Virus record (IMG/VR): IMGVR_UViG_3300024261_002332
Coordinates: 1 to 42,764 of that record
Reading direction: 5' to 3' (one strand)
DNA: 42,764 nucleotides
Origin: a virus
Part shown: positions 1 through 15,454 of the stretch, piece by piece
How positions within the stretch are numbered: the stretch's first letter is position 1
Layout of the letters: the number at the start of each line of letters is the position of its first letter
The notes under the pieces: model-generated
Told to the model about the DNA's origin: nothing
What the model saw: the letters and a program-made list of their open reading frames with translations, nothing else
Database searches by the model: none
Made by a program: the position numbers and the translations under genes

Positions 1-2470
1 ATCAGACGATGATGCTGCAACAAAGAGCTACGTAGATGGGGTTGCTCAAGGCTTATCAGCTAAAGATTCTGTTAGAGCAGCAACAACTGTTGACGGAACT
101 CTAGCGTCAGCATTTGCAAATAGTCAAGCTATTGATGGAGTTACATTAGCAACAGGTGACAGAATCCTTCTAAAGAATCAAACATCTGGACCAGAAAACG
201 GTGTGTATACTGTTAATGCTTCAGGCGCACCGACTAGATCAGTTGATTTCGATGAGAATGCAGAAGTAGCTAAAGGTGCATTTATCTTCGTAGAAGAAGG
301 AACGACAAATGCAGATGCAGGCTTTGTACTAACAACTGACGGTTCTATTACCTTGGACACAACATCACTTGCATTTACACAGTTTAGTGGCGCAGGAAAT
401 ATTACTGCAGGTGATGCTTTAGAAAAGAGTGGTAATGCTCTTAGCGTTAAAGTAGACAATAGTTCAATTGAAGTTGAAGTTAGTTCTGACGCACTTCGTG
501 TTAAAGCAACAGGAATCACAAGCGCTATGTTGGCAGGTTCTATTGCCAACTCAAAACTAAATCAATTAACCACAGCAAACAAAGTTGCGCTTTCATCGCT
601 TGATTTAGACGGCGGAACAGATATTGGTGCTGATCTTGTTGACGCTGACCTTGTTGTTGTAGACGACGGAGCTGGCGGGACAAATCGTAAATCTGCACTT
701 TCAAGAATGAAGAAATATGTTTTCTCTTCAGTAAGTGGTGATGCAACGGCTTCTGACACAGGCGCATTAACAATAGCTTCCGGCGCAGTTGAGACTGCAA
801 TGGTAAATGCAAATGTTTTGACCGGACAAACTGCTGAAACATCTATCGCTGATGACGATTTGGTTTTGGTTTATGACACATCAGCAACAGCTTTGAGAAA
901 GATGACCAAGGCAAACTTTGTTAGTGGTCTAAGCGGTGCAACAGCAGCTGATGACATCACTACAGGCGATGCAGCAGTAACTATTGCGACATCAGCAGGT
1001 AACATTACCTTAGATGCACAAGGTAGTAATAAAGATATTATCTTCAAGGGAACAGATGGCGGTGTTGATACAACGTTCTTAACATTATATGGTTCTGATG
1101 CAGGTACAGCAGTCTTTAATCATGATATTAAATTAGATTCAGACAATGCAAAATTATTTTTTGGTGATAATAATGAAGTTTACTTTGAGCATGTACATGA
1201 TACTGGATTAAATCTTTGGTTAACAGGCGCAGGTACAGACGAACCAAAACTTACGTTAAAGAGTTCAGGAGATGTTGCTAGAGGACCGCAGCTTGAATTT
1301 TATCATTTCCCAGCAAATGGTGGAAATGGCGATATTATTGGTTCTTTAGACTTTCTTGGGAAAGCAGGAAGTGGTGTTTTGTATTCTTACTGTGATGTAA
1401 GAGGAACTATTAATAATGTTGCCACCGGGGACTTCAGAGGGGAGCTTGATTTCAGGGTTCTTCGTGGCGCTTCTAACTCTATGGGGACAGCACTTTCAAT
1501 TATAGGTAATGCCTCAGGTGGTTCAACTGTTGACATATCAGATCACGATGGTTCTGCTGAAGGCTTGAAACTCGGTGGAACACTAGTAACAGCAACAGCA
1601 GCAGAGCTAAACATATTAGATGACGTGACTGCGACAACTGCAGAGATTAATTTACTTGATGGCGGAACATCTGTTGGGTCTTCAATAACTGTAGCAGATG
1701 CTGACGGTGTTATTATTAATGATGCAGGTACAATGAAGACAATTCCTGCTTCTGATCTTAAAACATATATCGGCGCTGGCGCTGCTGATGATTTGACAAC
1801 TGGCGATGCAGCAGTAACTATTGCGACATCAGCAGGAAATATTACGATTGATGCTCAAGGTAATGATACAGACATTATCTTCAAGGGAACAGATGGCTCT
1901 GCTGATATTACAATGCTTACACTTGATGGTTCTGAAGCAGGTGATGCGACATTTAATAGAAACGTTACAGTGACAGGCGACATTATCCTTGATGACGGTG
2001 GATCTATTAAAGAAGCTGGTGGTACTGCAGCAATAACAATTGATGCCTCTGGTGAAGTGACTAAGATTGGTCAAGATTCTCCTTCAGACGGTCAGGTATT
2101 AACTTGGGACAACTCAAACTCTAAAGTAGTTTGGTCTGCTGCTAGTGGTGGTAGTAGTCTTCCTCCAGAAGTAAAAGCACAGACAACATCAAGCTTTACA
2201 GTTTCTCTTACGCCGTCAAATGCTTCAAACTTTAACGCTCTTGAAGTTATTTATGCAGTAAGTAACGGTAGTACAGCAGTTACAGCAACTCTACCGACAG
2301 CAGCAAGTATTGAAGGTAAAAAGGTTCACGTCAAACGTTTAGGAACAGCTAACGTTACTGTTGATGGTTATAGTTCTGAGACAATCGACGGATCAACGAC
2401 ATTTGTATTGACAACACAATACAGCGCAGTAACAATGATATCAGACGGTACTAATTGGCTGATAATATGA
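1..2470 (+). CDS. Tail fibre / receptor-binding adhesin, 5'-truncated by window edge
   Basis: The reading frame is open from base 2 (first codons read SDDDAATKSYVDGVAQGL) and stops with TGA at 2468-2470, so the true start lies upstream of the window; the ATG at 203 is internal. The style is that of phage tail fibres: a DAATKSYVDGVAQGL module, then an IDGVTLATGDRILLKNQ module, then stacked beta-rich repeats rich in Ala, Thr, Gly and Asp. A near-duplicated module (TGDAAVTIATSAGNIT ... DIIFKGTDG) occurs twice, followed by AAELNILDDVTATTAEINLL and a C-terminal beta domain ending in SDGTNWLII. It would form a trimeric fibre binding the host surface. Hand counts of sampled lines give about 43% GC, clearly above the glycosyltransferase genes that follow. 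No chaperone or protease tail domain is seen. The fibre class is secure; the receptor is unknown. Confidence 0.88.
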   Translation, partial: SDDDAATKSYVDGVAQGLSAKDSVRAATTVDGTLASAFANSQAIDGVTLATGDRILLKNQTSGPENGVYTVNASGAPTRSVDFDENAEVAKGAFIFVEEGTTNADAGFVLTTDGSITLDTTSLAFTQFSGAGNITAGDALEKSGNALSVKVDNSSIEVEVSSDALRVKATGITSAMLAGSIANSKLNQLTTANKVALSSLDLDGGTDIGADLVDADLVVVDDGAGGTNRKSALSRMKKYVFSSVSGDATASDTGALTIASGAVETAMVNANVLTGQTAETSIADDDLVLVYDTSATALRKMTKANFVSGLSGATAADDITTGDAAVTIATSAGNITLDAQGSNKDIIFKGTDGGVDTTFLTLYGSDAGTAVFNHDIKLDSDNAKLFFGDNNEVYFEHVHDTGLNLWLTGAGTDEPKLTLKSSGDVARGPQLEFYHFPANGGNGDIIGSLDFLGKAGSGVLYSYCDVRGTINNVATGDFRGELDFRVLRGASNSMGTALSIIGNASGGSTVDISDHDGSAEGLKLGGTLVTATAAELNILDDVTATTAEINLLDGGTSVGSSITVADADGVIINDAGTMKTIPASDLKTYIGAGAADDLTTGDAAVTIATSAGNITIDAQGNDTDIIFKGTDGSADITMLTLDGSEAGDATFNRNVTVTGDIILDDGGSIKEAGGTAAITIDASGEVTKIGQDSPSDGQVLTWDNSNSKVVWSAASGGSSLPPEVKAQTTSSFTVSLTPSNASNFNALEVIYAVSNGSTAVTATLPTAASIEGKKVHVKRLGTANVTVDGYSSETIDGSTTFVLTTQYSAVTMISDGTNWLII
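965..1897 (+). repeat. Direct repeat of a 96-base fibre module (965-1060 and 1802-1897)
   Basis: Bases 965-1060 and 1802-1897 align without gaps. They begin with an identical run of about 35 bases coding for GDAAVTIATSAG and end with an almost identical block coding for DIIFKGTDG. The 837-base spacing is a multiple of three, so both copies are in the fibre reading frame. This is a duplicated structural module, and recombination between copies would delete the middle of the fibre in frame. Confidence 0.8.
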
Positions 2471-2753: not shown

Positions 2754-3650
2754 ATGTTTAAAAGCCCGTTTGAAGAAAAAAAAGATTTGATTGTCGTTTC
2801 TGACGCTTTCTTGCAACAATATGCAGGAGGTGCAGAAATGACTCTTGAAAGTTTTTTGGATGTTACTAGAGAAAAATATAACATTCATAAGATTAATTGT
2901 AGTGATTTGACTTTAGATGTTTTTAATCAAATTATGAGTAATTTTAAGAATGCAAAATGGTTGTTTGGAAATATAGGAAATATTTCTGCTAATATTTTAA
3001 ATATGGTAATTTTCAGAGTTAAGAACTATGATGTTATAGAATGTGACTATAAATATTGTATGTATAGATCTGAAGAACTTCATAAGTTTAAAGAGGGTGT
3101 AAACTGTAATTGTCATACAAATCTTCAGCTCACACATATTATTTCAAACTTCTACAGTAAAGCTAAAAGAATTTTCTGGATGTCAGATCAGCAAAAAGAA
3201 ATTACAAATAATAAAATTCGTATTACGTGTAACAACCAGATAACTCTGAGTTCTGTTTTTGAAAAAACACATATAAACTATATAAAAAATCTAAAAGACA
3301 ATACAGAGTTAAAACGGAGCAATAAATTTATAATACTTAAAAGTCCATCTTGGGTAAAAGGCTATGATCAAGCTTTTGATTATTGTAAAAAGAATAATAT
3401 TGAATATGAAGAAGTCTGGAACCTTGAATATAGTGAATTATTAAAAAAGCTTAGGACTTCTAAAGGTCTTGTTTATTTGCCTAATGGCAGAGATACTTGC
3501 CCAAGGCTTGTAATAGAAGCAAAGCTTTTAGGTTGCGAACTAATTTTAAATAATAATGTCCAACATAAAGATGAAGAATGGTTTAAAAATTCAGACGCAA
3601 TATACGAAAATCTATATAATAAATTAAATTTAATAAAGGAAATATTTTAA
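2754..3650 (+). CDS. GT-B fold glycosyltransferase (GT4-like)
   Basis: This 298-residue protein has the two halves of a GT-B glycosyltransferase. Near the N-terminus DLIVVSDAF (11-19) and YAGGAEMT (23-30) form the first Rossmann strand and the acceptor-side glycine loop. Near residues 240-262 the segment LPNGRDTCPRLVIEAKLLG is the donor-binding E-rich motif of GT4-type enzymes. A middle cysteine cluster (CDYKYCMYRSEE, then CNCHT) is unusual and could be structural. At under 300 residues it is shorter than typical GT4 enzymes of about 350-400. The ATG has a good Shine-Dalgarno (AAAGGAAG). It is first in a run of sugar-transfer genes, five bases before the next. The likely role is sugar transfer to a surface glycan or virion protein; donor and acceptor are unknown. 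Confidence 0.75.
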   Translation: MFKSPFEEKKDLIVVSDAFLQQYAGGAEMTLESFLDVTREKYNIHKINCSDLTLDVFNQIMSNFKNAKWLFGNIGNISANILNMVIFRVKNYDVIECDYKYCMYRSEELHKFKEGVNCNCHTNLQLTHIISNFYSKAKRIFWMSDQQKEITNNKIRITCNNQITLSSVFEKTHINYIKNLKDNTELKRSNKFIILKSPSWVKGYDQAFDYCKKNNIEYEEVWNLEYSELLKKLRTSKGLVYLPNGRDTCPRLVIEAKLLGCELILNNNVQHKDEEWFKNSDAIYENLYNKLNLIKEIF

Positions 3651-3654
3651 TTTT

Positions 3655-4659
3655 ATGAGTACTATATCTAGTTATACACAAACTTATAATTGTATTTCAC
3701 AAGACTTTCCTTTTGAGGAATGCATAACGTCATTACTAGGTTTCAGTGATGAAGTAATTGTTGTTGATGCATATTCAAATGATGGGACTTGGGAAAGATT
3801 AAATGAAATAGCTCAAGCTGAAAGTAGAATCAAGCTATTCCAAAGTCAGGAAAATAGTCAAGGTGTAAGCACTCTTACGCAATCACCCAAGGCATATGCT
3901 AGATCTTTGTGCACTGGTGACTGGTGTTGGCAAATGGATATCGATGAAATTGTACATGAAAAAGATTATCAAAGAATTAAAAACTTAATTAACGAAGTTA
4001 ATTTGCCTGAAGGCGTTGATATTTTATGTTTACCTATTGTAGAATATTGGGGTCCTCACGGTAAAGTTAGAGTTGACATTAATCCGTGGAAATGGCGATT
4101 AAGTAGAAATAAACCTCATATTACTCATGGTGTAAGAAAAGATTTACGTCAATATGACGAAGATGGAAATCTAATATCATCAGGAGGTTCTGATGCTGAC
4201 GATTATATACATAAAGAAACATTTGAGCAACTTCCAGTTGCATCATTTATGACTAGTCAAATTGAAACTGCAAGGCAAAAAGCGCATTATCATTTAGATG
4301 TATATGATTATCAGATTATTGTCAGTGATATTGTTGATAAGTTACCTACGTTACACCATTATTCTTGGTATTCTATTAAACGTAAGATAAATGATTATAA
4401 ATTGTTATGGGGTAGACACTGGAAAGAATTGTTTGGCAAAGACGGTTCAGATACAGCTGAAAATAATATAATGTTTGATAAACCTTGGTCTGAAGTAACT
4501 GATGAAGATATGAATACTTTGGCAGATAGATACGAAAAAGAACTTGGAGGTTGGATTTTTCATAATCCTGTTGATTGGGATAATACTACACCTTGGATTA
4601 ACAGAACTTGGACTCACCCAGAAGTCATGAATAATTGGATGAGTGATAAAGAAAGATAA
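3655..4659 (+). CDS. Family 2 glycosyltransferase (GT-A fold)
   Basis: The protein has 334 residues. The N-terminus shows the GT2 nucleotide-binding strand and loop VVDAYSNDGT (36-45), and the metal-binding DxD appears as WQMDIDE (92-98; Asp95 and Asp97). The long C-terminal half is rich in Trp, His and Tyr (for example PTLHHYSWYSIKRKINDY) and is likely the acceptor side. The AAAGGA at 3635-3640 is about 14 bases from the ATG, so initiation may be weak or coupled to the preceding gene. Resemblance to the WaaE/KdtX type of GT2 is limited to the N-terminal half. It belongs to the glycan cassette and abuts the next GT2 gene with no gap. Its GC content is near the window average, higher than that of the genes just downstream. 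Confidence 0.82.
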   Translation: MSTISSYTQTYNCISQDFPFEECITSLLGFSDEVIVVDAYSNDGTWERLNEIAQAESRIKLFQSQENSQGVSTLTQSPKAYARSLCTGDWCWQMDIDEIVHEKDYQRIKNLINEVNLPEGVDILCLPIVEYWGPHGKVRVDINPWKWRLSRNKPHITHGVRKDLRQYDEDGNLISSGGSDADDYIHKETFEQLPVASFMTSQIETARQKAHYHLDVYDYQIIVSDIVDKLPTLHHYSWYSIKRKINDYKLLWGRHWKELFGKDGSDTAENNIMFDKPWSEVTDEDMNTLADRYEKELGGWIFHNPVDWDNTTPWINRTWTHPEVMNNWMSDKER

Positions 4660-5388
4660 ATGAACAAATCAAAGCCTCAAGTATCAGTAATTATTCCTAT
4701 ACATAACGGTGAAAAAACTCTAGAAAGAAGTTTAAAATCAGTTATAAATCAAACTTATCGAGATTTTGAAGTCATTACTGTGTTAAATAATTGTTCTGAT
4801 AATTCTGAAAATATTTGTAAAAAATTCAATACAAAGATATTACATTGTAATGAGCAAGGAATAGTTCCAGCTTTGAATACTGGTCTATTAAATGCACAAG
4901 GCAAATATATTGCTAGACAAGATGCTGATGATTATTGGTATCCAGAAAAACTAGAAAAACAGGTTAATTTTATGATAGATAATCCTGATATTGATATTTT
5001 AGGTACTCAAATTAGAATTTTAGATAAAAATTTAAATGCAAGCAAAAATCAAGAAAAAAGGCCTTTAGACAATATTAGTATTAAAAATTGTTTATTAAAT
5101 GCAATGAATGTAATTGCACACCCTTCTGTTTTATTTAAAAAATCTATTTTTCTTAGAACTGGTTTTTATTCTGATTTATATCCTTTTGCCGAAGATTATG
5201 AGCTTTGGTTAAAGTCTATAAAATTTTTCAATTTTTCAAATTTACCTGATATTTTAGTAGATTATACTTTAACACATAATCCTAAATACAGTCCAGAAAT
5301 TCATAAAATTGTTTGTTTAAATTACAACATACTATATAATAAGATAGAAAAATATGATTACATTCACAAACTTAGGAAATCAAGGTAG
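4660..5388 (+). CDS. Family 2 glycosyltransferase (GT-A fold)
   Basis: This is a compact 242-residue GT2 enzyme. VSVIIPIHNG (8-17) is the canonical first strand, NQTYRDFEVI follows, DADD (88-91) is the metal/nucleotide-sugar DxD, and AEDYELW (177-183) carries the usual ED catalytic-base motif. All key positions are intact. The ATG follows the previous stop codon directly, and the last 35 bases overlap the start of the fucosyltransferase gene, so translation is probably coupled. Sampled lines here are only about 20% GC, unlike the tail fibre at about 43%, which suggests that this part of the cassette was acquired separately. Donor and acceptor sugars cannot be read from the sequence. Confidence 0.88.
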   Translation: MNKSKPQVSVIIPIHNGEKTLERSLKSVINQTYRDFEVITVLNNCSDNSENICKKFNTKILHCNEQGIVPALNTGLLNAQGKYIARQDADDYWYPEKLEKQVNFMIDNPDIDILGTQIRILDKNLNASKNQEKRPLDNISIKNCLLNAMNVIAHPSVLFKKSIFLRTGFYSDLYPFAEDYELWLKSIKFFNFSNLPDILVDYTLTHNPKYSPEIHKIVCLNYNILYNKIEKYDYIHKLRKSR

Positions 5389-6154
5389 ACTTGGAAATCA
5401 AATGTTTCAATATTCAATGCTAATTGGTGTAGCAAATAGACTTAAAACAAACATTTATATTGAAAATAAAAATATTAGTCTTTTTAATACATTTGATATT
5501 ATTAATTCACCTGAACAACCACAGCTTAATAAATATAAAAACATGTTTATTTTTAAAGAATCAGGTTATCATTTTAACAACAGTATACTAAATATTGACA
5601 AGAAATTAGTTGAAAATAATATTATTGATTTTTTTGGATATTTCCAGTCACAAAAATACTGGTCTAAATTTAAGGAAGAAATTTTTAATAATTTTAAGTT
5701 TAAAGAAAAAGTTACAAATAAAAAATATAAATTTAACACAGATTCTTTAAACGAATTTTGTGCAATACACGTTAGAAGAGGTGATTATCTTGAAAAGCAA
5801 GATTGTCATCCTGTGCAATCAATTGATTACTATCGTCAAGGTATTAAAATAATAAATAACAAATTTAATTGTAAAAAAATTATAATTTTTAGTGATGATA
5901 TTTCTTGGTGCAAAAAAAATTTTATTGAATTTGAAAAAAATAATCACATTATTTACTCAGAAAATCATTCTGAACAAGAAGATTTATATTTAATGACACT
6001 TTGTAAATATCATATAATCGCAAATTCTTCTTTTTCTTGGTGGGGATCTTTTTTGGCAAATAGTAAATATACAATTTGTCCTAAAGTTTGGTTTGGACCA
6101 AAGCTAAATCATAATACGAAAGACATGTATTTAGAAAACTGGGATCGACTATGA
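5354..6154 (+). CDS. Alpha-1,2-fucosyltransferase (GT11)
   Basis: The 266-residue protein carries the hallmark motifs of GT11 fucosyltransferases: GRLGNQMFQY (11-20), the GDP-fucose-binding HVRRGDY (139-145), FSDD (179-182), EQEDLYLM (207-214) and NSSFSWWGSFLA (224-235). Length is close to that of bacterial members (about 280-300). It should transfer fucose from GDP-fucose in alpha-1,2 linkage, typically to galactose, making an H-type disaccharide. The start at 5354 is supported by the N-terminal distance to GRLGNQMFQ, although the Shine-Dalgarno is weak; it lies 35 bases inside the preceding gene. It ends in an ATGA overlap with the GT6 gene. No GDP-fucose synthesis genes are in the window, so the donor would come from the host or from elsewhere in the phage genome. 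The family is certain; the acceptor is inferred. Confidence 0.93.
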   Translation: MITFTNLGNQGRLGNQMFQYSMLIGVANRLKTNIYIENKNISLFNTFDIINSPEQPQLNKYKNMFIFKESGYHFNNSILNIDKKLVENNIIDFFGYFQSQKYWSKFKEEIFNNFKFKEKVTNKKYKFNTDSLNEFCAIHVRRGDYLEKQDCHPVQSIDYYRQGIKIINNKFNCKKIIIFSDDISWCKKNFIEFEKNNHIIYSENHSEQEDLYLMTLCKYHIIANSSFSWWGSFLANSKYTICPKVWFGPKLNHNTKDMYLENWDRL

Positions 6155-6825
6155 AAATTGGGTTACTTTTAATAGCAACAGGTAAGTATGATATTTTTAT
6201 AGAACCTCTAATAGAGTCTATAGAAAAACATTTTTTTAAAAATCATAATGTATGCATATTTTTATTTACAGATTCAGATAAGGAATATGATTACACAAAT
6301 ACTAAAATTATTTATAAAGAGCATAAACCTTTTCCATATCCGACTCTAGAAAGATATAAAACATTTAGTAAAAGTAGCGAGCTTTTTGATGATTGTGATT
6401 ATTTATTTTACTGTGATATTGATATGCTATTTGTAGATGACGTAGATACAGAAATACTTTCAGAAAGAGTAGCCACAATACACCCGGGATTCTTAGGTAA
6501 AAGAGGTACACCAGAAACTAGAAAAGAAAGCTTAGCATATGTTTCTCCAAAAGAAAAACTCGTATATTATGCGGGTGGATTTAACGGTGGAACAAGAAAT
6601 GAATTTTTAAAAATGTCAAAACATTTATCAGAAAATATACAAAAAGATCTTGACAAAAATATTATTGCTATATGGCATGATGAATCTCATATGAACAGGT
6701 ATTTTTTAGATAATCCTCCTACTAAGGTATTAACACCCTCATATTGTTATCCTGAAAGTTGGAAATTGCCATTTAAGAAAAAGCTTTTAGCTCTTGATAA
6801 AAACCATAACGAGATTAGAAATTAA
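6151..6825 (+). CDS. GT6 family alpha-1,3-Gal/GalNAc transferase (ABO blood-group transferase homologue)
   Basis: The 224 residues match the catalytic domain of vertebrate ABO transferases almost motif for motif: FLFTD (37-41), metal-binding DID (89-91), HPGF (111-114), YYAGGFNGG (139-147), IWHDESHMNRY (174-184), PTKVLTPSY (190-198) and KNHNEIRN (217-224). Glu178 in WHDESH is equivalent to the catalytic Glu303 of human GTA. There is no membrane anchor or stem, as expected for a bacterial or phage member. The DxD is intact; as I recall, cellular bacterial members often carry NxN there. At the donor-specificity positions equal to human 266 and 268 it has Ala141 and Gly143; Gly at the latter is the GalNAc-using (A-type) state, so GalNAc is the better guess. 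It starts in an ATGA overlap with the GT11 gene and ends TAATG on the next GT2. Confidence 0.92.
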   Translation: MKIGLLLIATGKYDIFIEPLIESIEKHFFKNHNVCIFLFTDSDKEYDYTNTKIIYKEHKPFPYPTLERYKTFSKSSELFDDCDYLFYCDIDMLFVDDVDTEILSERVATIHPGFLGKRGTPETRKESLAYVSPKEKLVYYAGGFNGGTRNEFLKMSKHLSENIQKDLDKNIIAIWHDESHMNRYFLDNPPTKVLTPSYCYPESWKLPFKKKLLALDKNHNEIRN

Positions 6826-7481
6826 TGATATCAATATTAATGCCAATATACAACGGGCATGAATTTTTTCATGAAAGTTATTCTAGTATATTAAATCAAA
6901 CTTTTGAAAATTGGGAGCTTTTAATTGGAATTAATGGTCACCAAAAAGACAGTAATGTATTTACACACATCAAATCAATAGCAGCTTCAAATAAAAAAAC
7001 AAAAATATTTCAGTTTAATGATATTAAAAATAAATCTATTACATTAAATCGACTAATAAAAGAATGCAATTATGATATTGTTTGCTTATTAGATGTAGAC
7101 GATATCTGGAAAAAAAACAAGTTAAAACATCAAATTAAATACATAAAAAAATATGATGTAGTAGGAACAGATTGTAAATATTTCGGTGAAAGATTTAACA
7201 AGCCTCATCTTCCTTTTGGTTTAATTGATAAAAAAACTTTTATGTCTTATAATCCTATTATTAATTCTTCGTCAATGTTTTATAAAAAAGATGCCTTTTG
7301 GAATGAATCAATTAGAGCATTAAATGACTATGAAATGTGGTTAAGATTAAATAAAGAAGGCAAAACATTTTATAATATTCAAGAAGAACTTTGTTTACAT
7401 AGAGTTTATTCTTCATCTTTTTACAACTCAAAAGATAATAGTGATATTGAAAAAAGATTAAAAAACAAGTGGTATATTTAA
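6825..7481 (+). CDS. Family 2 glycosyltransferase (GT-A fold)
   Basis: This 218-residue GT2 enzyme is related to the one encoded at 4660. It begins ISILMPIYNG (2-11), has NQTFENWELLIG, a DxD-type DVDD at 90-93, GTDCKYFGERF, and NDYEMW at 167-172 where GT2 enzymes usually have ED; here Asn replaces the Glu but the Asp is kept. The short length leaves almost no extra C-terminal domain. Its ATG overlaps the GT6 stop by one base (TAATG), so the two are translated together. It probably adds one sugar before or after the fucose and GalNAc/Gal steps, but neither donor nor order can be derived from sequence. Very AT-rich, like its neighbours. Confidence 0.87.
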   Translation: MISILMPIYNGHEFFHESYSSILNQTFENWELLIGINGHQKDSNVFTHIKSIAASNKKTKIFQFNDIKNKSITLNRLIKECNYDIVCLLDVDDIWKKNKLKHQIKYIKKYDVVGTDCKYFGERFNKPHLPFGLIDKKTFMSYNPIINSSSMFYKKDAFWNESIRALNDYEMWLRLNKEGKTFYNIQEELCLHRVYSSSFYNSKDNSDIEKRLKNKWYI

Positions 7482-7490
7482 AAAATTTAT

Positions 7491-7601
7491 ATGTTAAAAG
7501 AAAACTTTTTAATTAAAATAGAGATAGAAGATATTGATAAATTTGAAACATTTCAATATTGTAATTTTATTATTTCTCAAGAGGAACTAAATGCTAATTA
7601 A
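7491..7601 (+). CDS. Possible 36-residue peptide between GT2 and FkbM genes
   Basis: An ATG at 7491 opens a 36-codon frame (MLKENFLIKIEIEDIDKF ...) ending TAA at 7601 and overlapping the next gene by 11 bases. The composition is protein-like, with alternating Ile/Glu and Phe, and it fills the only notable gap inside the cassette. There is no clear Shine-Dalgarno ahead of it, and it may be a gene remnant or chance in AT-rich DNA. No family is recognised. Confidence 0.3.
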   Translation: MLKENFLIKIEIEDIDKFETFQYCNFIISQEELNAN

Positions 7602-8220
7602 ATTAAATGAATTACAAAATAAATATAATATAAATCCAATCAATGTAATACATATTGGTGCTCATGATGGTCAAGAATATAAATCGTATAAAGATATCGG
7701 CGTTAAAAATATTGTATGGATTGAAGCTAATCCAGAAATTTCAAATAGATTGAGTAAAAAATTTGAAAGTGAAAAAAATACAAAAGTTATAAATGCATTA
7801 ATTACTGATGTTGATAATCAAGAATTTATTTTTAACATTACTAATAACGAACAATCTTCTTCAATTCTTGAATTAGGTAAACATAAAAATTTATATCCTA
7901 ATATATTTTATACTAAAAAAATAAGTCTTTTTTCAAAAACTATTGATACATTAGTTAAAGAACATCAAATTAAAGAAAAATTTGACTTTATGAATATCGA
8001 CGTACAAGGAGCAGAATTACTAGTTTTAAAAGGTGCTAAAAATACTCTTAAAACAGTAAAAGCTGTTTACACAGAAATTAATACTGACTATGTTTATAAA
8101 GATTGTGCTTTAATAGATGAAATAGATAGTTATCTTTTTAACTTTGACTTTAAGAGAGTTGAAACTAAAATGCATCAGGATCATCCTTGGGGTGATGCAT
8201 TATATTTAAAAAATATATAA
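7591..8220 (+). CDS. FkbM-family SAM-dependent methyltransferase
   Basis: The 209-residue protein has a class I methyltransferase fold of the FkbM type. The SAM-binding motif I is VIHIGAHDGQE (19-29), motif II is IEANP (44-48), and the family signature FDFMNIDVQGAELLVLKG lies at 131-148. FkbM enzymes O-methylate sugars and polyketides and are common in phage and bacterial surface-glycan clusters, so the likely role is to cap or modify a sugar built by the upstream glycosyltransferases. The ATG follows GAGGAACTAA, a good Shine-Dalgarno. It is the last gene of the cassette, and 47 bases of almost pure A+T separate it from the nuclease gene. No residue needed for SAM binding appears lost. Confidence 0.9.
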   Translation: MLIKLNELQNKYNINPINVIHIGAHDGQEYKSYKDIGVKNIVWIEANPEISNRLSKKFESEKNTKVINALITDVDNQEFIFNITNNEQSSSILELGKHKNLYPNIFYTKKISLFSKTIDTLVKEHQIKEKFDFMNIDVQGAELLVLKGAKNTLKTVKAVYTEINTDYVYKDCALIDEIDSYLFNFDFKRVETKMHQDHPWGDALYLKNI

Positions 8221-8267: not shown

Positions 8268-9134
8268 ATGAAAGTAAGCAATATGTCTGAAGATGAATTA
8301 AATAAAAAAGTAAAAAATTATGTGTCTTTTTCTGAAATAAAGCAGTGGAAAGATTGTGGTTGGCGTCATAAACTTTTATATATTGACAAAATTGGTACGT
8401 TTGAAGATTCACCACATCTTCATTATGGAACTATAATACACGATGCAGTTGAAAATCTATTAAAAAGCGGCACAGTTGACTTAGATGTCGTAAAGGAAAA
8501 AATAGAAAAGACCTGGGGCGTTGCGGGCTTTGATAGTAATGACTTTATAATTTTACAGGAAAACAAAGCAAACCAGCAGGGCTGGAAGTATAAACATAAT
8601 AGTATAGAAAGCTGGGTTGATTGGTCAAATGCTTGTCTTGAAAGATTGCCGGGATTCTTAGAAGAAAACTTTCCTGGATACACTCTGTTTGGTGCAGAAG
8701 AACAGTTGTTTGAAGATATAGAGTTTAATCATAAAAAGTTTAAAGGTTATATAGACTGTATTATAAAGGTACCAACAAGCAAAGGTAATAAATACTGGAT
8801 AATAGACTGGAAGACTTCATCGGCAAGAGGGTGGGATAGAAGAAAACAACAAGACATTTCTTTTACTTCACAGTTAGTACTATATAAACACTTTTGGGCT
8901 AAAAAGCACAATATTCCTTTGAGAGAAATTAATTGTGGCTTTGTTCTATTGAAAAAAACAAAAAAAATGGAAAAAACTTGTCAATTAATAAAAGTGGCAA
9001 CAGGGCCCAAGACTATGGAAAAATCTTTAAAGCTAATGAGTAGTATGTTAAAAACTGTTGAACAAAAAAGGTATCTTAAAAATAGAAATTCCTGTATGTT
9101 TTGCGAGTTTTACAATACCAAGAATTGTTTATAG
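8268..9134 (+). CDS. Cas4/RecB-like PD-(D/E)XK exonuclease with putative Fe-S cysteines
   Basis: This 288-residue protein belongs to the PD-(D/E)XK family of the RecB/Cas4/AddB type. In order: the VSFSEIKQWKDC box (19-30), GTIIHDAVE (54-62), the acidic pair E144-E145, GYID (160-163) with Asp163, IIDWKTS (178-184) with Asp180 and Lys182, and the downstream QL (202-203). One cysteine at 30 and three at 276, 279 and 287 reproduce the split arrangement that holds a 4Fe-4S cluster in Cas4 and AddB. It likely processes DNA ends in phage recombination or replication, or degrades host DNA. The start could be 8268 or 8283; the promoter-like sequence fits the latter slightly better. It interrupts a run of sugar-transfer genes and may belong to a different regulon. 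Confidence 0.85.
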   Translation: MKVSNMSEDELNKKVKNYVSFSEIKQWKDCGWRHKLLYIDKIGTFEDSPHLHYGTIIHDAVENLLKSGTVDLDVVKEKIEKTWGVAGFDSNDFIILQENKANQQGWKYKHNSIESWVDWSNACLERLPGFLEENFPGYTLFGAEEQLFEDIEFNHKKFKGYIDCIIKVPTSKGNKYWIIDWKTSSARGWDRRKQQDISFTSQLVLYKHFWAKKHNIPLREINCGFVLLKKTKKMEKTCQLIKVATGPKTMEKSLKLMSSMLKTVEQKRYLKNRNSCMFCEFYNTKNCL

Positions 9135-9159: not shown

Positions 9160-10392
9160 TTGAGTAAAAAAAAGATAATAGTTTTAAGCGATCACGCACT
9201 TTCAACAAGTGGTGTAGGCGTACAGACTAGACACTTAATAAATGGCTTGATAAAAAAAGGTTGCTGGTCATTTAAGCAATTAGGTGCAGCAATAAAGCAC
9301 ACAGACTACAGTTTAAAACAAATTAATGATGATTTTGTTATTAAGCCGATAGACGGTTTTGGAAATAAAGATATGATGAGAAATATTCTCATTACAGAAA
9401 AACCTGACGCAATTATATTGTTTACAGATCCAAGATTTTTTCTTTGGCTTTTTGAAATAGAAGACGAAATTCATCAAGTATGTCCTATTTTTTGGTGGCA
9501 TGTATGGGATAATAGACCTACTCCGTTATTTAATAGTTGGATGTATGAAGCAACAGACGCTATTAACTGCCATTCTTATTTAACATACCAGATGTGTTCT
9601 GAGAATTTTCCAGAAAAATCCAGATTTATACCTCATGCTATACCAGAAAATATTTTTCACGAAATCTCTGATGAAGAAAAAATAAAATATAAAACTAAAG
9701 TTTTAGGTGAAGACAAAAAAGATCATTTTGTTGCTTTTTGGGCAAATCGTAACGCAAGAAGGAAAAGGCCTGGTGATTTATTAAATGCTTGGAAGTTGTT
9801 CCTAGATAAAACAGATAAGAAAGACGCAATGTTGATATTGCATACTGACCCTTTTGATAACGAAGGTGTTAACATTCCTAAAATTATAAAAATGTTAAAC
9901 ATAGAAAAAAATGTTGCAATATCAACTGACAAGATTGATTTTGATGAAATGAATATAATGTATAACATATCAGATATTACATTGAACATAAGTTTTGCTG
10001 AAGGTTTTGGTTTATCAACTCTTGAGTCTATGCAAACTGGTACGCCTATTGTATCTATAACAACAGGTGGTTTAACAAGACAAGTAATTGATCATAGAGA
10101 CAATTCTGAAAATGGCGTTGCGATAAAGCCTGTTTTGAAAAATCTAGTAGGGAGTCAAAATGTTCCTTATATATACGAAGACTATGTTTCTACTGAAGAC
10201 GTTGCTGATGGCATATTGAAAATGTATTCTTTAGATGAAAAATCACGCAAAAAGCTTTCTTTTAAAGTTAAGAAATATGCGAAAGAAGAGTTTTCTTACG
10301 AAAAAACAATAGATATGTGGCATGATTCTATAGATTACACTATAACAAACTGGAAGAAAAAAAGGCAAAATATTTATCTGGAGGAATTTTAA
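9160..10392 (+). CDS. GT4-type glycosyltransferase (TTG start)
   Basis: The 410-residue protein is a full-length GT-B enzyme. The N-terminal domain opens with KIIVLSDHALSTSGVGVQTR, the glycine-rich acceptor loop of GT4 enzymes, and the C-terminal donor domain has WANRNARRKRP, then AEGFGLSTLESMQTGTP near residues 280-296 with the E-x7-E nucleotide-sugar motif. The start is TTG at 9160, set by AGGAG at 9147-9151 eight bases upstream; no in-frame ATG lies nearby. GC content is higher than in the 4660-8220 cassette, so it may have a separate history. It abuts the next GT4 gene without a gap, and the pair may act in sequence on one acceptor. Acceptor candidates are a host surface glycan, phage DNA or virion protein; none is shown by sequence. 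Confidence 0.85.
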   Translation: MSKKKIIVLSDHALSTSGVGVQTRHLINGLIKKGCWSFKQLGAAIKHTDYSLKQINDDFVIKPIDGFGNKDMMRNILITEKPDAIILFTDPRFFLWLFEIEDEIHQVCPIFWWHVWDNRPTPLFNSWMYEATDAINCHSYLTYQMCSENFPEKSRFIPHAIPENIFHEISDEEKIKYKTKVLGEDKKDHFVAFWANRNARRKRPGDLLNAWKLFLDKTDKKDAMLILHTDPFDNEGVNIPKIIKMLNIEKNVAISTDKIDFDEMNIMYNISDITLNISFAEGFGLSTLESMQTGTPIVSITTGGLTRQVIDHRDNSENGVAIKPVLKNLVGSQNVPYIYEDYVSTEDVADGILKMYSLDEKSRKKLSFKVKKYAKEEFSYEKTIDMWHDSIDYTITNWKKKRQNIYLEEF

Positions 10393-11601
10393 TTGAAAAA
10401 CATTTTGATTGTCGGGCCATTGCTATCAATATCAGGATATGGTTATCATAGTAGACAAGTATTTGATTATTTTTTAAATAAAAAAGATGTCAGAGTCTAT
10501 TCTGCTATTTTGCCTTGGGGTAATACTTCTTGGTTTGTAAATAAAGATGCTGAAAATGGATTGATAGGTAAGATTATAGATTCAGCTGTTGATATCAAAA
10601 ACATATCAAGTAATGAGTATGATATAGGCATACACATACAACTACCTAATGAGTGGAATACAACATTTGCAAGAAAAAACGTAGGAATTTCAGCTTATGT
10701 TGAAACTGATATTTGCTCGCAATCGTGGATTGAAAAAACATTGCCCATGGATTTAGTGATTGTTCCAAGTAATTTTACAAAACAAATTGTTTTAAACTCT
10801 TCAAAAGATGAAAGTCAAAAGAAAGTATTAAATGATAAAATATCTGTTGTTGCTGAATATTATCATACAGACTTTGATAAAGCAGACAAAGAGAAGGCTG
10901 AAGGCTTGGATATCTCTTTAGAAAAAGTAAATACAGAATTCAACTATCTTTCTATTGGCCATTTAACTTCTGAAGATGAAAATTGTGATAGGAAAAATTT
11001 AATTGAAACTTTAAGATATTTTTGTTCACAATTTAAAGATGATAAAAAAGTAGGATTAATATTAAAAACCTCTATTGGAAGATCTACAACACTTGACAGA
11101 AATAAAACAATAGAAGTTTTTAGTAGCATTATAAAACAAATCAAAGGTGACTCAGAATATCCGAAAGTATATATACTACACGGCGAAATGTCTATTAATG
11201 AGTTGTATTCTTTATATACACATAAAAAAGTTAATTGTTACTTGACGCTTACAAAAGGAGAAGGTTATGGTCTTCCTTTGCTAGAGTCAGCTAGATGTGG
11301 TTTACCTATTATAGCTACAAACTGGTCAGGACACTTAGACTTTTTAAATAATGATTTTCTAAGAGTTGATTATGATTTAAACTTTTTGCCTAAAGAAAAA
11401 ATTGATAATAATATCTTTGTTGACAAATCAAAGTGGGCAATAGTTAGAAAAGATAGCGTTAAAAAACAACTTGAATATTCATATAAAAACTATGAAAAAA
11501 TTAAAGAAAAATCACTCAAATTAAAATCAGAAATTGTTAAAAATTACTGTAGAAAAGAAATTTTTAACAAATATGACAAAGTATTAAAGGAATATTTATA
11601 A
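10393..11601 (+). CDS. GT4-type glycosyltransferase (TTG start)
   Basis: This 402-residue GT-B enzyme starts NILIVGPLLSISGYGYHSRQ, with the Gly-rich loop near residues 13-17, and carries the donor-site segment KGEGYGLPLLESARCGLP near residues 287-305, including the E-x7-E pair. The middle segment NVGISAYVETDICSQSWIE resembles the GT4 region that precedes the interdomain linker. The TTG start directly follows the upstream TAA; GGAGGA at 10380-10385 lies seven bases ahead, so the start is well supported. Two neighbouring genes that both use TTG with strong Shine-Dalgarno sites suggest set translation levels. The sugar and acceptor are unknown; its length and intact motifs argue for an active enzyme. 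Confidence 0.83.
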   Translation: MKNILIVGPLLSISGYGYHSRQVFDYFLNKKDVRVYSAILPWGNTSWFVNKDAENGLIGKIIDSAVDIKNISSNEYDIGIHIQLPNEWNTTFARKNVGISAYVETDICSQSWIEKTLPMDLVIVPSNFTKQIVLNSSKDESQKKVLNDKISVVAEYYHTDFDKADKEKAEGLDISLEKVNTEFNYLSIGHLTSEDENCDRKNLIETLRYFCSQFKDDKKVGLILKTSIGRSTTLDRNKTIEVFSSIIKQIKGDSEYPKVYILHGEMSINELYSLYTHKKVNCYLTLTKGEGYGLPLLESARCGLPIIATNWSGHLDFLNNDFLRVDYDLNFLPKEKIDNNIFVDKSKWAIVRKDSVKKQLEYSYKNYEKIKEKSLKLKSEIVKNYCRKEIFNKYDKVLKEYL

Positions 11602-12651: not shown

Positions 12652-13029
12652 ATGAATGATAAAAGTATAAGTAGTATTTCAAAAAAAATCGACAGCAATG
12701 AAAAAAAAGAGAATCAAATAAAAAATTTTGCTGATATTCTTGATTCTATTGACTCTTTAGAGAGTAAAAAGAAAATGTTGTGGAAGGAAATATATGAAAA
12801 TGCGATAGAAGATAGAGAAAAGTCTAAATTGTTATTTAATGATGCATATATTTCAATGCAAGGTGGTGTTAATGAACATATGAATATAGGCGCAATAATG
12901 TCAAAATACATTGAAAGAATGAGCAAGTCAAATGATCAAATATTGAAGCTTGCTGAATTGATTGCTAAAGAAGAAGAAAAGTCTGAAGTAGTGTCAACAG
13001 ATGATATTTTTAGTCAGATTAACGGTTAA
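12652..13029 (+). CDS. Small coiled-coil protein, possible late-transcription partner
   Basis: The ATG at 12652 is preceded by GAGG at 12642-12645; a longer reading from TTG at 12640 is less likely. The 125-residue product is highly charged and helical: a Lys/Asp/Ser-rich start, LESKKKMLWKEIYENAIEDR, then SKYIERMSKSNDQILKLAEL, and an acidic end with STDDIFSQI. It sits directly between the sigma factor and the gp5-like gene. T4 gp33, the gp55 partner, also ends in a clamp-binding hydrophobic-acidic motif, and TDDIF is faintly like it. T4 gp25 is preceded by uvsY, another small helical protein, but the UvsY pattern is not visible here. No family is confirmed; gp33-like, UvsY-like or unrelated structural roles all remain open. 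Confidence 0.6.
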   Translation: MNDKSISSISKKIDSNEKKENQIKNFADILDSIDSLESKKKMLWKEIYENAIEDREKSKLLFNDAYISMQGGVNEHMNIGAIMSKYIERMSKSNDQILKLAELIAKEEEKSEVVSTDDIFSQING

Positions 13030-13032
13030 ATT

Positions 13033-14922
13033 ATGTTTGTAAAAGCAAGAGTTCTTTATATGATTGGTGATGATGTCGGTGATTCTTCGCTAATCGATAC
13101 AAATCTAAGCGAAATTGGCGTCAAATCTAAGTTTTTCAATACAAACCCGTCAGTTTTTTCAAATATTGGTTACGTAAATTTTTTAAAAAAACTCCCAGCA
13201 GAGACTGCTTTTGCTGTGAAGATTGTATCTGGTAATAATAACAATATTTCTCATAGTTTTTTAATATCTATTCCATTTGTTTCTTCGCACTTAGGTTTAC
13301 CTATAAAGGTTGGGGAAACAATATGGCTCCAAGAAATAAGTGAAATATCAGATGTAGAAAAATTCTATGAAATTAATGCATATTATCTAGGGCGAGCACA
13401 CAGTTATTTTACTACTGAAGATGTTGGTTACTGTTATGACAACAGAGAAGATGAAATATTTAATGTAAGTAGGAAAAGTTTTAATCAATCGCGTGCAGAC
13501 AATAGTAAAAATGTCAAACAAAAGTTAGATACATTAAAAGATTCAAACTCTAAAGCAAACTCTATTTTTGTTCATAACACGATTGGTGAAAACAAAGAAT
13601 TAAAGTATTTAAACAATAAAATTTCATATATTACAAAAACCATAGACGATTATGAAATAAAACCTACAGCAAAGTTTATTAAAAAACCAGAAGATGCAGT
13701 TTTTCAAGGAACATATAATAATATGATAAGTTTGTCAAGCGAAAATGACAAATTTGAATCAGGACATAGGTATGGAAATATTGAATTGATTGCAGGGCGT
13801 GGAGAATATACTAAAAATAAACCACCAGAAGAATTTGAGTTTGATCAAGTACAGACTAATAAGCAAAAAATATCTAATAAGGCTAGAGTAATAAAGTTTG
13901 ACACAGACATAATAGGTGCGCAAGTTTGGAATGGAATTCATTACGAAACTATTAAGTCAGATATGTCTTTTGTAAATGAGGGTATAGTAAAAAAGTTAGG
14001 TTTGGATGCTTATGGTACAAACTTATTAAACAACAAAAACGATAGAATAAAAAGTTATAACACGAATGCTTCTTGCTTTAATATATCTGAGTATAATACT
14101 AAAAGTATCGAAATTCAAAAAAATAATTTGCTTTCTCTTAATGATATAACAAATTTAAGTTTAGATTTTTTTGTTAATTCGTTTATTAAGAATAAAAACG
14201 TCTTTTCAGTTCAAGTCCCAGCAGTTTATCCCGACATTAATAAACCTCTTTTAGACTCGTTTCACGGAGGTTCTAGCATAACAGGCGTATCAGACAGCAT
14301 TTTGTTTTGTACGCATAAAAATATCTACTCAGAAAACAATAATATAAAGTTAATCCAGACAAATAGCGATGACAATAGCCCTACACAGATATCCCTCAAC
14401 CAGTCAGGAAATATACTGTTAGACGGACATAAAATATTAATTGGTTCTTTTAATAGACTAAAAGAAAAGCAACACGGAAAATCAGCCATGGTATATCTTG
14501 GTCATAGCAACGAAAACCAAAGCCTTGTTCTAGGTGAAAGATTAAACGATTTCTTAGAAGAGTTATTAACAGTCCAGATAGAAACTTTAAATTTAACTAA
14601 AGATTTGTTTAAAAAGTCAAAAGACGTATCTTCTTCTACGAAAGATACATTAAAAAATCTTAATGGGTATATTAAAGAGTTTGCCGGGGCACTTGATAAA
14701 GCAACAAAGGCACCCCCATTAATACCACTAAACGCACCTTTTAATGCTTTTTTTAAAATAGTAGAGGAAAACGAAAAAAGTATAGAAGGAATACCGATCG
14801 ATGAGTTTGATAAACAAATAATAGATTTTAGAGTAAACAAAGATGAAGAATATTCTTTGAGGATACAGAGTATAGTTGATAACTTAGAATTATTATTAAG
14901 TAAATTTACTAAAACTTCTTGA
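13033..14922 (+). CDS. gp5-like baseplate hub/spike protein with OB fold
   Basis: In the N-terminal third of this 629-residue protein, FLISIPFVSSHLGLPIKVGE (76-95), TIWLQ and NAYYLGRAH (115-123) form the OB-fold pattern seen in phage gp5-type baseplate spike proteins. Near residue 485 the segment AMVYLGHSNENQSLVLGERL and then NDFLEELL give the usual VLG-[ED]-[RK]-L-x-x-x-LEEL exit helix. The C-terminal 130 residues are helical and charged. No lysozyme domain like that of T4 gp5 is present between OB fold and C-terminus, so peptidoglycan cutting, if any, is done by another protein. It lies three bases after the small helical protein and just before the gp25-like gene. The middle is Asn/Lys-rich and of unknown function. 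Confidence 0.7.
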   Translation: MFVKARVLYMIGDDVGDSSLIDTNLSEIGVKSKFFNTNPSVFSNIGYVNFLKKLPAETAFAVKIVSGNNNNISHSFLISIPFVSSHLGLPIKVGETIWLQEISEISDVEKFYEINAYYLGRAHSYFTTEDVGYCYDNREDEIFNVSRKSFNQSRADNSKNVKQKLDTLKDSNSKANSIFVHNTIGENKELKYLNNKISYITKTIDDYEIKPTAKFIKKPEDAVFQGTYNNMISLSSENDKFESGHRYGNIELIAGRGEYTKNKPPEEFEFDQVQTNKQKISNKARVIKFDTDIIGAQVWNGIHYETIKSDMSFVNEGIVKKLGLDAYGTNLLNNKNDRIKSYNTNASCFNISEYNTKSIEIQKNNLLSLNDITNLSLDFFVNSFIKNKNVFSVQVPAVYPDINKPLLDSFHGGSSITGVSDSILFCTHKNIYSENNNIKLIQTNSDDNSPTQISLNQSGNILLDGHKILIGSFNRLKEKQHGKSAMVYLGHSNENQSLVLGERLNDFLEELLTVQIETLNLTKDLFKKSKDVSSSTKDTLKNLNGYIKEFAGALDKATKAPPLIPLNAPFNAFFKIVEENEKSIEGIPIDEFDKQIIDFRVNKDEEYSLRIQSIVDNLELLLSKFTKTS

Positions 14923-14971
14923 TAATCTTGATTATTTAATATTTATTAACAAATAATATACGAAGGTTTTT

Positions 14972-15454
14972 ATGTCACAATACTTATTTAAAAATTCTGG
15001 CCGTAATATAAAAGAGCTAGATAAAAAAATAAAAAGAAATAATTTTATAGAAAATGAAAATTTTTTTCCTATAGGTATTGTTTTACCATTACAGAATTCT
15101 AAAAAGTCGAGTGAGTCATTATTTGCAATGACTTATGACTTGAATGAGCAAACTAAGGTAAATTTAAAAAATTTAATTTTGACTAGAAAAGGTGAATATC
15201 TCGGCAGACCTGATTTTGGAACTGGTTTAATTGATCTTTATAATTTAAGTAGTAATGAAAACATTGATCAAATTGCTATGGACGAAATTAAAAGTGCTGT
15301 TGGTATTTATATGCCCTTTATTACGCTTAAAGATTTTGAGTCAAGTTATATAGAATCAACAGTTAACAGTGATCCTTATTACGACATAAAAATATACTAT
15401 ATATTTAATGATATTAAAAATGAAATTAATTTAAAACTTCAAGTATCGAGGTAA
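14972..15454 (+). CDS. gp25: gp25-like baseplate wedge protein (GPW/gp25 family)
   Basis: The 160-residue protein has the GPW/gp25 core: NLKNLILTRKGEYLGRPDFG then TGL at 64-86, with the family-typical R-x-GE-x-x-x-R/G-P-x-FG pattern, followed by a helix (ENIDQIAMDEIKSAVGIYMP) and a closing beta segment. T4 gp25 is 132 residues; here about 30 extra residues sit at the N-terminus. It forms part of the inner wedge with the gp6-like protein, whose gene begins three bases later, as is usual for this pair. GAAGG lies nine bases ahead of the ATG. The 49-base gap upstream is nearly all A+T and holds no convincing promoter. Confidence 0.92.
   Translation: MSQYLFKNSGRNIKELDKKIKRNNFIENENFFPIGIVLPLQNSKKSSESLFAMTYDLNEQTKVNLKNLILTRKGEYLGRPDFGTGLIDLYNLSSNENIDQIAMDEIKSAVGIYMPFITLKDFESSYIESTVNSDPYYDIKIYYIFNDIKNEINLKLQVSR

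Follow-up and report, generated by a model that had tools for sequence, protein, structure and literature searches.

A candidate ABH-like GT11–GT6 enzyme pair in a variable phage sugar island

A GT11 gene and a GT6 gene overlap in a viral record

The window analyzed here is the whole of the IMG/VR viral record IMGVR_UViG_3300024261_002332, which comprises 42,764 bases, is linear and therefore probably represents a fragment. Two overlapping genes on its plus strand encode a member of glycosyltransferase (GT) family GT11 and a member of family GT6, the family of the human ABO enzymes and of BoGT6a from Bacteroides ovatus (Table 1). A preliminary description of the window had read them as a phage two-gene module that could build an ABH blood-group-like glycan. 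Both open reading frames (ORFs) and their ATGA overlap lie exactly where it had placed them, all the motifs it had named are present, and its label 'phage' fits a viral contig with baseplate-wedge genes. The pair is embedded in a longer same-strand run of seven genes (2754-8220), which that description had not reported, in the order GT-like gene, GT2, GT2, GT11, GT6, GT2 and FkbM-type methyltransferase. Several glycosyltransferases thus stand together with sugar-modifying genes in a single run, as in a surface-sugar cluster. The term 'two-gene module' is too strong, and the two genes are better described as members of a modular sugar island.

Table 1. Features of the sugar island and its flanks in the window
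Feature	Coordinates	Strand	Basis and remarks
Tail-fibre / head-decoration-like protein, left flank	203-2470	+	755 aa; partial PHROG matches 'head decoration' 1.9e-14, 'tail fiber' 1.7e-5
Island gene 1, probable glycosyltransferase	2754-3650	+	no Pfam match; 35-40% identity to L008, L012, L335
Island gene 2, GT2-type glycosyltransferase	3655-4659	+	PF00535 8.3e-10
Island gene 3, GT2 glycosyltransferase	4660-5388	+	PF00535 1.6e-32; 35-bp overlap of its 3' end with GT11
GT11 α-1,2-fucosyltransferase-family enzyme	5354-6154	+	266 aa; PF01531 4e-31; PHROG 2644 2.2e-64; motifs; AlphaFold2; Foldseek
ATGA overlap, GT11 stop / GT6 start	6151-6154	+	sequence
GT6 glycosyltransferase (ABO / BoGT6a family), DXD	6151-6825	+	224 aa; PF03414 1.1e-42; PHROG 3317 1.2e-54; BoGT6a phmmer 3.1e-47
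Island gene 6, GT2 glycosyltransferase	6825-7481	+	PF00535 4.5e-16; start on last GT6 base (TAATG)
Island gene 7, FkbM-type methyltransferase	7591-8220	+	PF05050 9.5e-19
PD-(D/E)XK nuclease, conserved right flank	8268-9134	+	PF12705 1.5e-16; 87.5% identical in L259, whose upstream island differs
Two GT4 glycosyltransferases, conserved right flank	9160-10392, 10393-11601	+	PF00534; 85% and 71% identical in L259
Baseplate wedge protein, marker of tail block	15458-17332	+	PHROG 6 6.6e-13

The GT11 profile scored 108.8 bits against a Pfam cut-off of 23.9 and the GT6 profile 146.3 bits against a cut-off of 25, and the family E-values of both proteins rule out a chance match. PHROG 2644 and PHROG 3317, which the two proteins match, are both labelled 'glycosyltransferase'. 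In GT11, the motifs GRLGNQ, HVRRGDY, SDD and SSFSWW begin at residues 11, 139, 180 (as FSDD, 179-182) and 225, respectively. The AlphaFold2 model of this protein, built on an alignment of the window with phage relatives, reached a predicted local distance difference test (pLDDT) score of 92.1 and adopts a GT-B-like fucosyltransferase fold, whose best Foldseek matches are the GDP-fucose enzymes POFUT1, FUT8, plant FUT1 and NodZ. A phmmer search of GT11 against the PDB gave no match, and it was the fold search that found relatives. The GT6 model, obtained in the same way, has a pLDDT of 96.5 and a GT-A fold, superimposing on BoGT6a (4cj8_E) with a TMq of 0.96, a root-mean-square deviation of 1.4 Å and 37% identity, and on human GTA/GTB with a TMq of about 0.92. 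Structure prediction, which the preliminary description had put forward as a check, thus places GT6 on BoGT6a and human GTA and GT11 on a fucosyltransferase fold.

The GT6 donor pocket resembles that of BoGT6a

The GT6 motifs comprise DID (residues 89-91), HPGF (from 111), YAGGFNGG (from 140), WHDESH (from 175, containing Glu178) and PTKVLTPSY (from 190). Alignment with human GTA and BoGT6a revealed that the window enzyme retains Asp89-x-Asp91, His111 (human His233), Thr120 (Thr245), Trp175, Asp177, the catalytic Glu178 (Glu303), Lys217 and Arg223. Gly143 aligns with human position 268, as had been proposed, and Ala141 with position 266. At these two donor positions the window enzyme is identical to BoGT6a, whereas human A has Leu/Gly and human B Met/Ala; Pro201-Glu202, at human 326/327, are likewise as in BoGT6a. 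Judged by these residues, the acceptor/donor pocket is most like that of BoGT6a, and a pocket-based guess at the donor would be N-acetylgalactosamine (GalNAc).

Across 76 viral GT6 rows, the equivalents of His233 and Glu303 are invariant (76/76 each) and DXD occurs in 75, therefore the phage enzymes are predicted to be metal-dependent. Ala is found at position 266 in 56 rows and Gly at 268 in 57; Gln (14) and Cys (13) at these positions mark a second group. Two GT6 genes occur together in some phages (L041, 3952-4668 and 6030-6764; L044, 8001-8696 and 8699-9430), the Ala-Gly pocket being present in one of them while the other is from the Gln-Cys clade, as if two different sugars were added. 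In metagenome-assembled genomes of gut Candidatus Gastranaerophilales (L088-L092), GT6 occurs without GT11 nearby, and in L088 NAN replaces DXD, like other bacterial GT6. An Actinomycetota metagenome-assembled contig of cellular or proviral origin (L093, 787-2506) has overlapping GT6 and GT11 genes in reversed order, with GT6 first.

GT6 and GT11 co-occur in many phages

A tblastn search detected GT6 in 71 of 50,697 phage records, GT11 in 102-103, and psbA, as a count of cyanophages, in 512. We opened nine cyanophage regions (P-SSM2, S-CAM9, S-PRM1, Bellamy, S-8S55, B23, DSL-LC02, DSL-LC03 and SynMITS9220M01), all of which carry both genes, with GT11 directly upstream of GT6 in every region except that of P-SSM2. 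The order nucleotide-sugar epimerase-GT11-GT6, with overlapping genes, is found in the cultured Synechococcus phages S-CAM9, S-PRM1, Bellamy, S-8S55 and SynMITS9220M01, and the order GT11-GT6 in B23, DSL-LC02 and DSL-LC03. Identification of the epimerase as GalE is not supported, its NCBIfam scores being far below the cut-off. In P-SSM2, a single cluster contains gmd (539 bits, cut-off 415), a GDP-fucose synthase (462 bits, cut-off 500), GT11 and GT6. Hit tables place both genes also in ACG-2014f, P-SSM5, S-8S53 and S-8S56, and the huge uncultured phages LR745206 and LR756502 have them in one region; two faecal contigs with GT6 were left out of the GT11 check. The pair is not limited to the genome of the window, so that the restriction to one genome that the preliminary description had named as refuting its reading is itself refuted, and it is often accompanied by GDP-fucose genes.

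For quantification, IMG/VR loci were dereplicated by removing anchors >90% identical, the neighbourhood was set at 8 kb, and each scan kept the nearest 80 loci. Single-sequence scans with GT11, FkbM and GT2 gave almost no matches, hence alignments served as queries; the GT2 alignment was too diverse for this purpose. GT11 was found near GT6 in 46 of 56 loci and near an unrelated phage GT4 anchor in 4 of 43 (loci with at least 6 kb upstream), a difference (Fisher 1e-13) that is indicative only, as are all p-values here, since the scans were capped in this way and the lineages are related. GDP-mannose 4,6-dehydratase (GMD) genes were more frequent near GT6 (26/56) than near FkbM (12/62, p=0.003) or GT11 anchors (21/74, p=0.04). 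Ten GT6 lineages have no GT11 within 8 kb; in four of them (L017, L039, L071 and L075) the locus begins, on its left side, no more than ~1.3 kb from GT6, in two (L063 and L079) GT11 is present elsewhere in the record, and the other four are L008, L012, L035 and L047.

Proposed serial action and a rival reading with separate branches

On balance, we lean towards an explanation in which the two enzymes act in series, GT11 making Fuc-α-1,2-Gal and GT6 adding GalNAc or Gal in α-1,3 linkage, to give a branched ABH-like cap. Both enzyme families of the ABH pathway are encoded together in the window. Neighbouring GT2 enzymes would place a terminal β-galactose-type residue, GT11 would transfer L-fucose from GDP-fucose onto it, and GT6 would modify the same residue with a metal ion held by DXD. 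The FkbM enzyme may O-methylate the cap, perhaps on fucose, and the cap would alter the glycan on the infected-cell surface or on the virion. Fucose is a substrate of some FkbM-type methyltransferases. FkbM directly adjoins GT11 in 19 of the 62 FkbM-anchored loci (L174-L253) and GT6 more often than chance, which suggests possible fucose methylation by such enzymes, including that of the window (7591-8220). We infer the serial action itself as well as the sugar identities, the linkage, the target and the benefit.

In the main rival reading, GT6 would act on a non-fucosylated residue and GT11 would fucosylate another sugar within one and the same glycan, their proximity reflecting a shared modular cluster. 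We consider such separate branches less likely, although a number of results argue against serial action and several of these also for separate branches. FkbM anchors carry GT11 in 45 of 62 loci, no different from GT6 anchors (p=0.27), which weakens co-occurrence alone as an argument for coupling; the FkbM control was seeded from FkbM genes of GT6 loci and is hence conservative. Among the GT6 loci, direct GT11-GT6 adjacency was seen 4 times with 6.5 expected, and GT11 lay directly upstream in 3 cases with 3.3 expected, while FkbM-GT6 adjacency exceeded chance (9 seen, 2.4 expected). Adjacency was rejected as a general argument for coupling because it is at chance level in these loci. Moreover, no match to GT11, GT10 or O-FucT was found in the GT6-bearing records L008 (320 kb), L012 (87 kb), L035 (332 kb) and L047 (210 kb) or, from another scan, in L261 (257 kb), any of which may be an incomplete record; other cassette genes of the window do occur in L008, L012 and L261. 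Nor was a GMD match found within the 42.8-kb window fragment. Finally, the known GT6 α-1,3-galactosyltransferase and Forssman synthase act without a fucosylated acceptor (PMC3961637), and the GT11 family includes the α-1,3-fucosyltransferase HhFT2 (PMC4202792). The association of GT6 with GT11 is not a strict one.

Other observations speak against separate branches. GMD and GDP-fucose-synthase-like genes are nevertheless present in three of the five records without a GT11 match (L008, L012 and L261), so fucose may still be made there; GMD is enriched near GT6 relative to both other anchors; the GT11-GT6 operon order is conserved in at least eight cyanophage isolates; and the pocket is closest to that of BoGT6a, whose acceptor is fucosylated. 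A NodZ search for other fucosyltransferases was uninformative, as no control genome gave a match. In L008, a 668-aa ORF (13021-15027) fuses GDP-L-fucose synthase and GMD. Look-alikes of IMP dehydrogenase / GMP reductase, recognized by eye, lie inside the sugar islands of L008 (2244-3293) and L012 (1889-2902), and such genes would perhaps supply guanine nucleotides for GDP-sugars.

Of the ABH-like reading in the preliminary description, the families, the folds, the BoGT6a-like pocket and the co-occurrence across phages stand, while action in series stays a proposal in view of the chance-level adjacency, the FkbM clusters that hold GT11 almost as often and the five GT11-free phages.

The island occupies a fixed slot beside tail genes

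Comparison with relatives showed a variable sugar island at a fixed site between the tail-fibre/decoration-like gene and the tail genes. Relative L259 retains the right-hand block, with the nuclease 87.5%, GT4 85% and the baseplate protein 75% identical, and has different sugar genes (PF03407, GT47) upstream of the nuclease (1-2021). The nuclease and GT4 genes are thus 85-88% identical next to wholly different sugar genes (window 2754-8220, L259 1-2021), and the site beside the tail genes is a fixed position into which sugar islands can be exchanged. At the same site, relative L335 carries a fused GT-like+GT2 gene, GT2, GT11, GT6, GT4, GDP-fucose synthase and GMD, and its GT11 and GT6 also overlap by ATGA, at 5446. 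The L335 GT6 groups with that of the Synechococcus phage operon in the Gln/Cys clade (SH-aLRT support 99%), far from the window GT6. That one site has the same gene order with GT6 of separate clades speaks for exchange or for assembly on more than one occasion. Mapped on the GT6 tree, GT11 adjacency must change at least 10 times (long-branch rows excluded). The single 636-aa ORF of L335 (2053-3963) corresponds to island genes 1 and 2 of the window, and this fusion suggests that their products act together.

The baseplate-wedge genes of the window have distant relatives in phages of Flavobacterium and Microcystis and in an uncultured phage of 484 kb, and distant structural matches were also found in Rhodothermus phages. 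The lineage is read here as a probable large T4-like phage.

The location of the island bears on the destination of its product. One view is that the host lipopolysaccharide (LPS) or capsule is capped or rebuilt so that other phages are blocked during infection, an idea put forward for the LPS clusters of cyanophages. PHROGs class both families as auxiliary/host takeover, the P-SSM2 cluster has been discussed in such terms (PMC7824862, PMC9602691), and the O-antigen of E. coli O86 bears H and B structures made by GT11 and GT6 enzymes (PMC4202792). The tail-gene location in the lineage of the window counts against a host-surface target, which we would call quite possible, stopping just short of probable. 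That location instead favours the view that tail fibres or head proteins are decorated by the island enzymes and that the surface of the particle is varied rather than that of the host, since the island lies between the tail-fibre/decoration-like gene and the baseplate block; in addition, the two neighbouring GT4 genes remain beside the tail genes even where a relative has another island, and glycosylated virions are known in mycobacteriophages, according to work cited in PMC12619734. On the other hand, in cyanophages the GT11-GT6 genes have auxiliary metabolic genes (transaldolase, hli, psbA) as neighbours and lie apart from the structural ones, a context that speaks for the host surface. We regard decoration of the virion as plausible without being probable.

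A third destination would be phage DNA, with sugar chains built on its hydroxymethylated bases. Some phages are known to have glycosyltransferases that assemble sugar chains on DNA (Pyle et al. 2024, as cited in PMC12619734). However, GT11 and GT6 differ in family from the known DNA glucosyltransferases, and thymidylate synthase / hydroxymethylase (PF00303) occurred in just 2 of 13 GT6-related records, several of which exceed 200 kb and some of which may be fragments, making DNA hypermodification very improbable.

More broadly, phages might have assembled an ABH-type pathway, with GDP-fucose supply, an H-type GT11 and an A/B-type GT6 of varying donor pocket, several times independently as an exchangeable cassette, such that lineages would display different 'blood types' on virions or infected cells and thereby shape superinfection or recognition. 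This is a speculative scenario, and we think it rather doubtful as a whole. Were the serial action true, the two-step logic of the ABO system would exist in bacterial viruses, widely and in exchangeable form, and genes usually labelled 'glycosyltransferase, host takeover' would gain a concrete, assayable product. Serial action would also explain why GDP-fucose genes travel with GT11-GT6, and it would provide many DXD-type GT6 with natural donor-pocket variants (Ala-Gly, Gln-Cys, Ile-Ala) for the study of blood-group donor choice.

Comparison with known systems

BoGT6a, which transfers GalNAc to 2'-fucosyllactose to yield an A-antigen-like product (PMC3961637), is the best PDB sequence match of the window GT6 (4AYJ and 4CJ8; TMq 0.94-0.96) and has the same residues at the equivalents of human 266, 268, 326 and 327. 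Unlike the window enzyme, whose DID motif predicts metal dependence, BoGT6a has NXN and works without a metal. Nearly all bacterial GT6 are of the metal-independent NXN type, with two DXD exceptions by 2014, including that of Parachlamydia, which was shown to require metal (PMC3961637). The human GTA/GTB and FUT1/FUT2 enzymes belong to the same CAZy families, follow the proposed order of action and share the GT6 motifs DXD, HPGF and WHDESH; however, GT6 identity to GTA/GTB is 33-34%, and the window enzyme has no membrane anchor and carries Ala-Gly at 266/268.

In E. coli O86, GT11 makes Fuc-α-1,2-Gal and the GT6 enzyme WbnI then adds α-1,3-Gal, completing a blood group B structure (PMC4202792). 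The O86 proteins are O-antigen enzymes of known activity, whereas the phage pair lies in a sugar island and is known from sequence. The cyanophage LPS clusters of P-SSM2, S-CAM9, Bellamy and S-PRM1 similarly contain GT6 and GT11 in a multi-glycosyltransferase cluster, often with nucleotide-sugar enzymes and in some cases with the ATGA overlap, but they lie among auxiliary metabolic genes, and their directly paired GT6 belongs to the Gln/Cys clade. GT6 had been noted in two cyanophages by 2014 (PMC3961637), and phage LPS clusters with many glycosyltransferases have been described, including the α-1,2-fucosyltransferase and GDP-fucose synthesis of S-SCSM1 (PMC7824862, PMC9602691). Our literature search, which covered few subscription journals, found no published account of GT11-GT6 pairing in phages. 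Thus, both the presence of GT6 in cyanophages and the existence of phage sugar clusters were on record, and what seems to be new is a recurrent ABH-like enzyme pair in a phage sugar island, with a predicted product.

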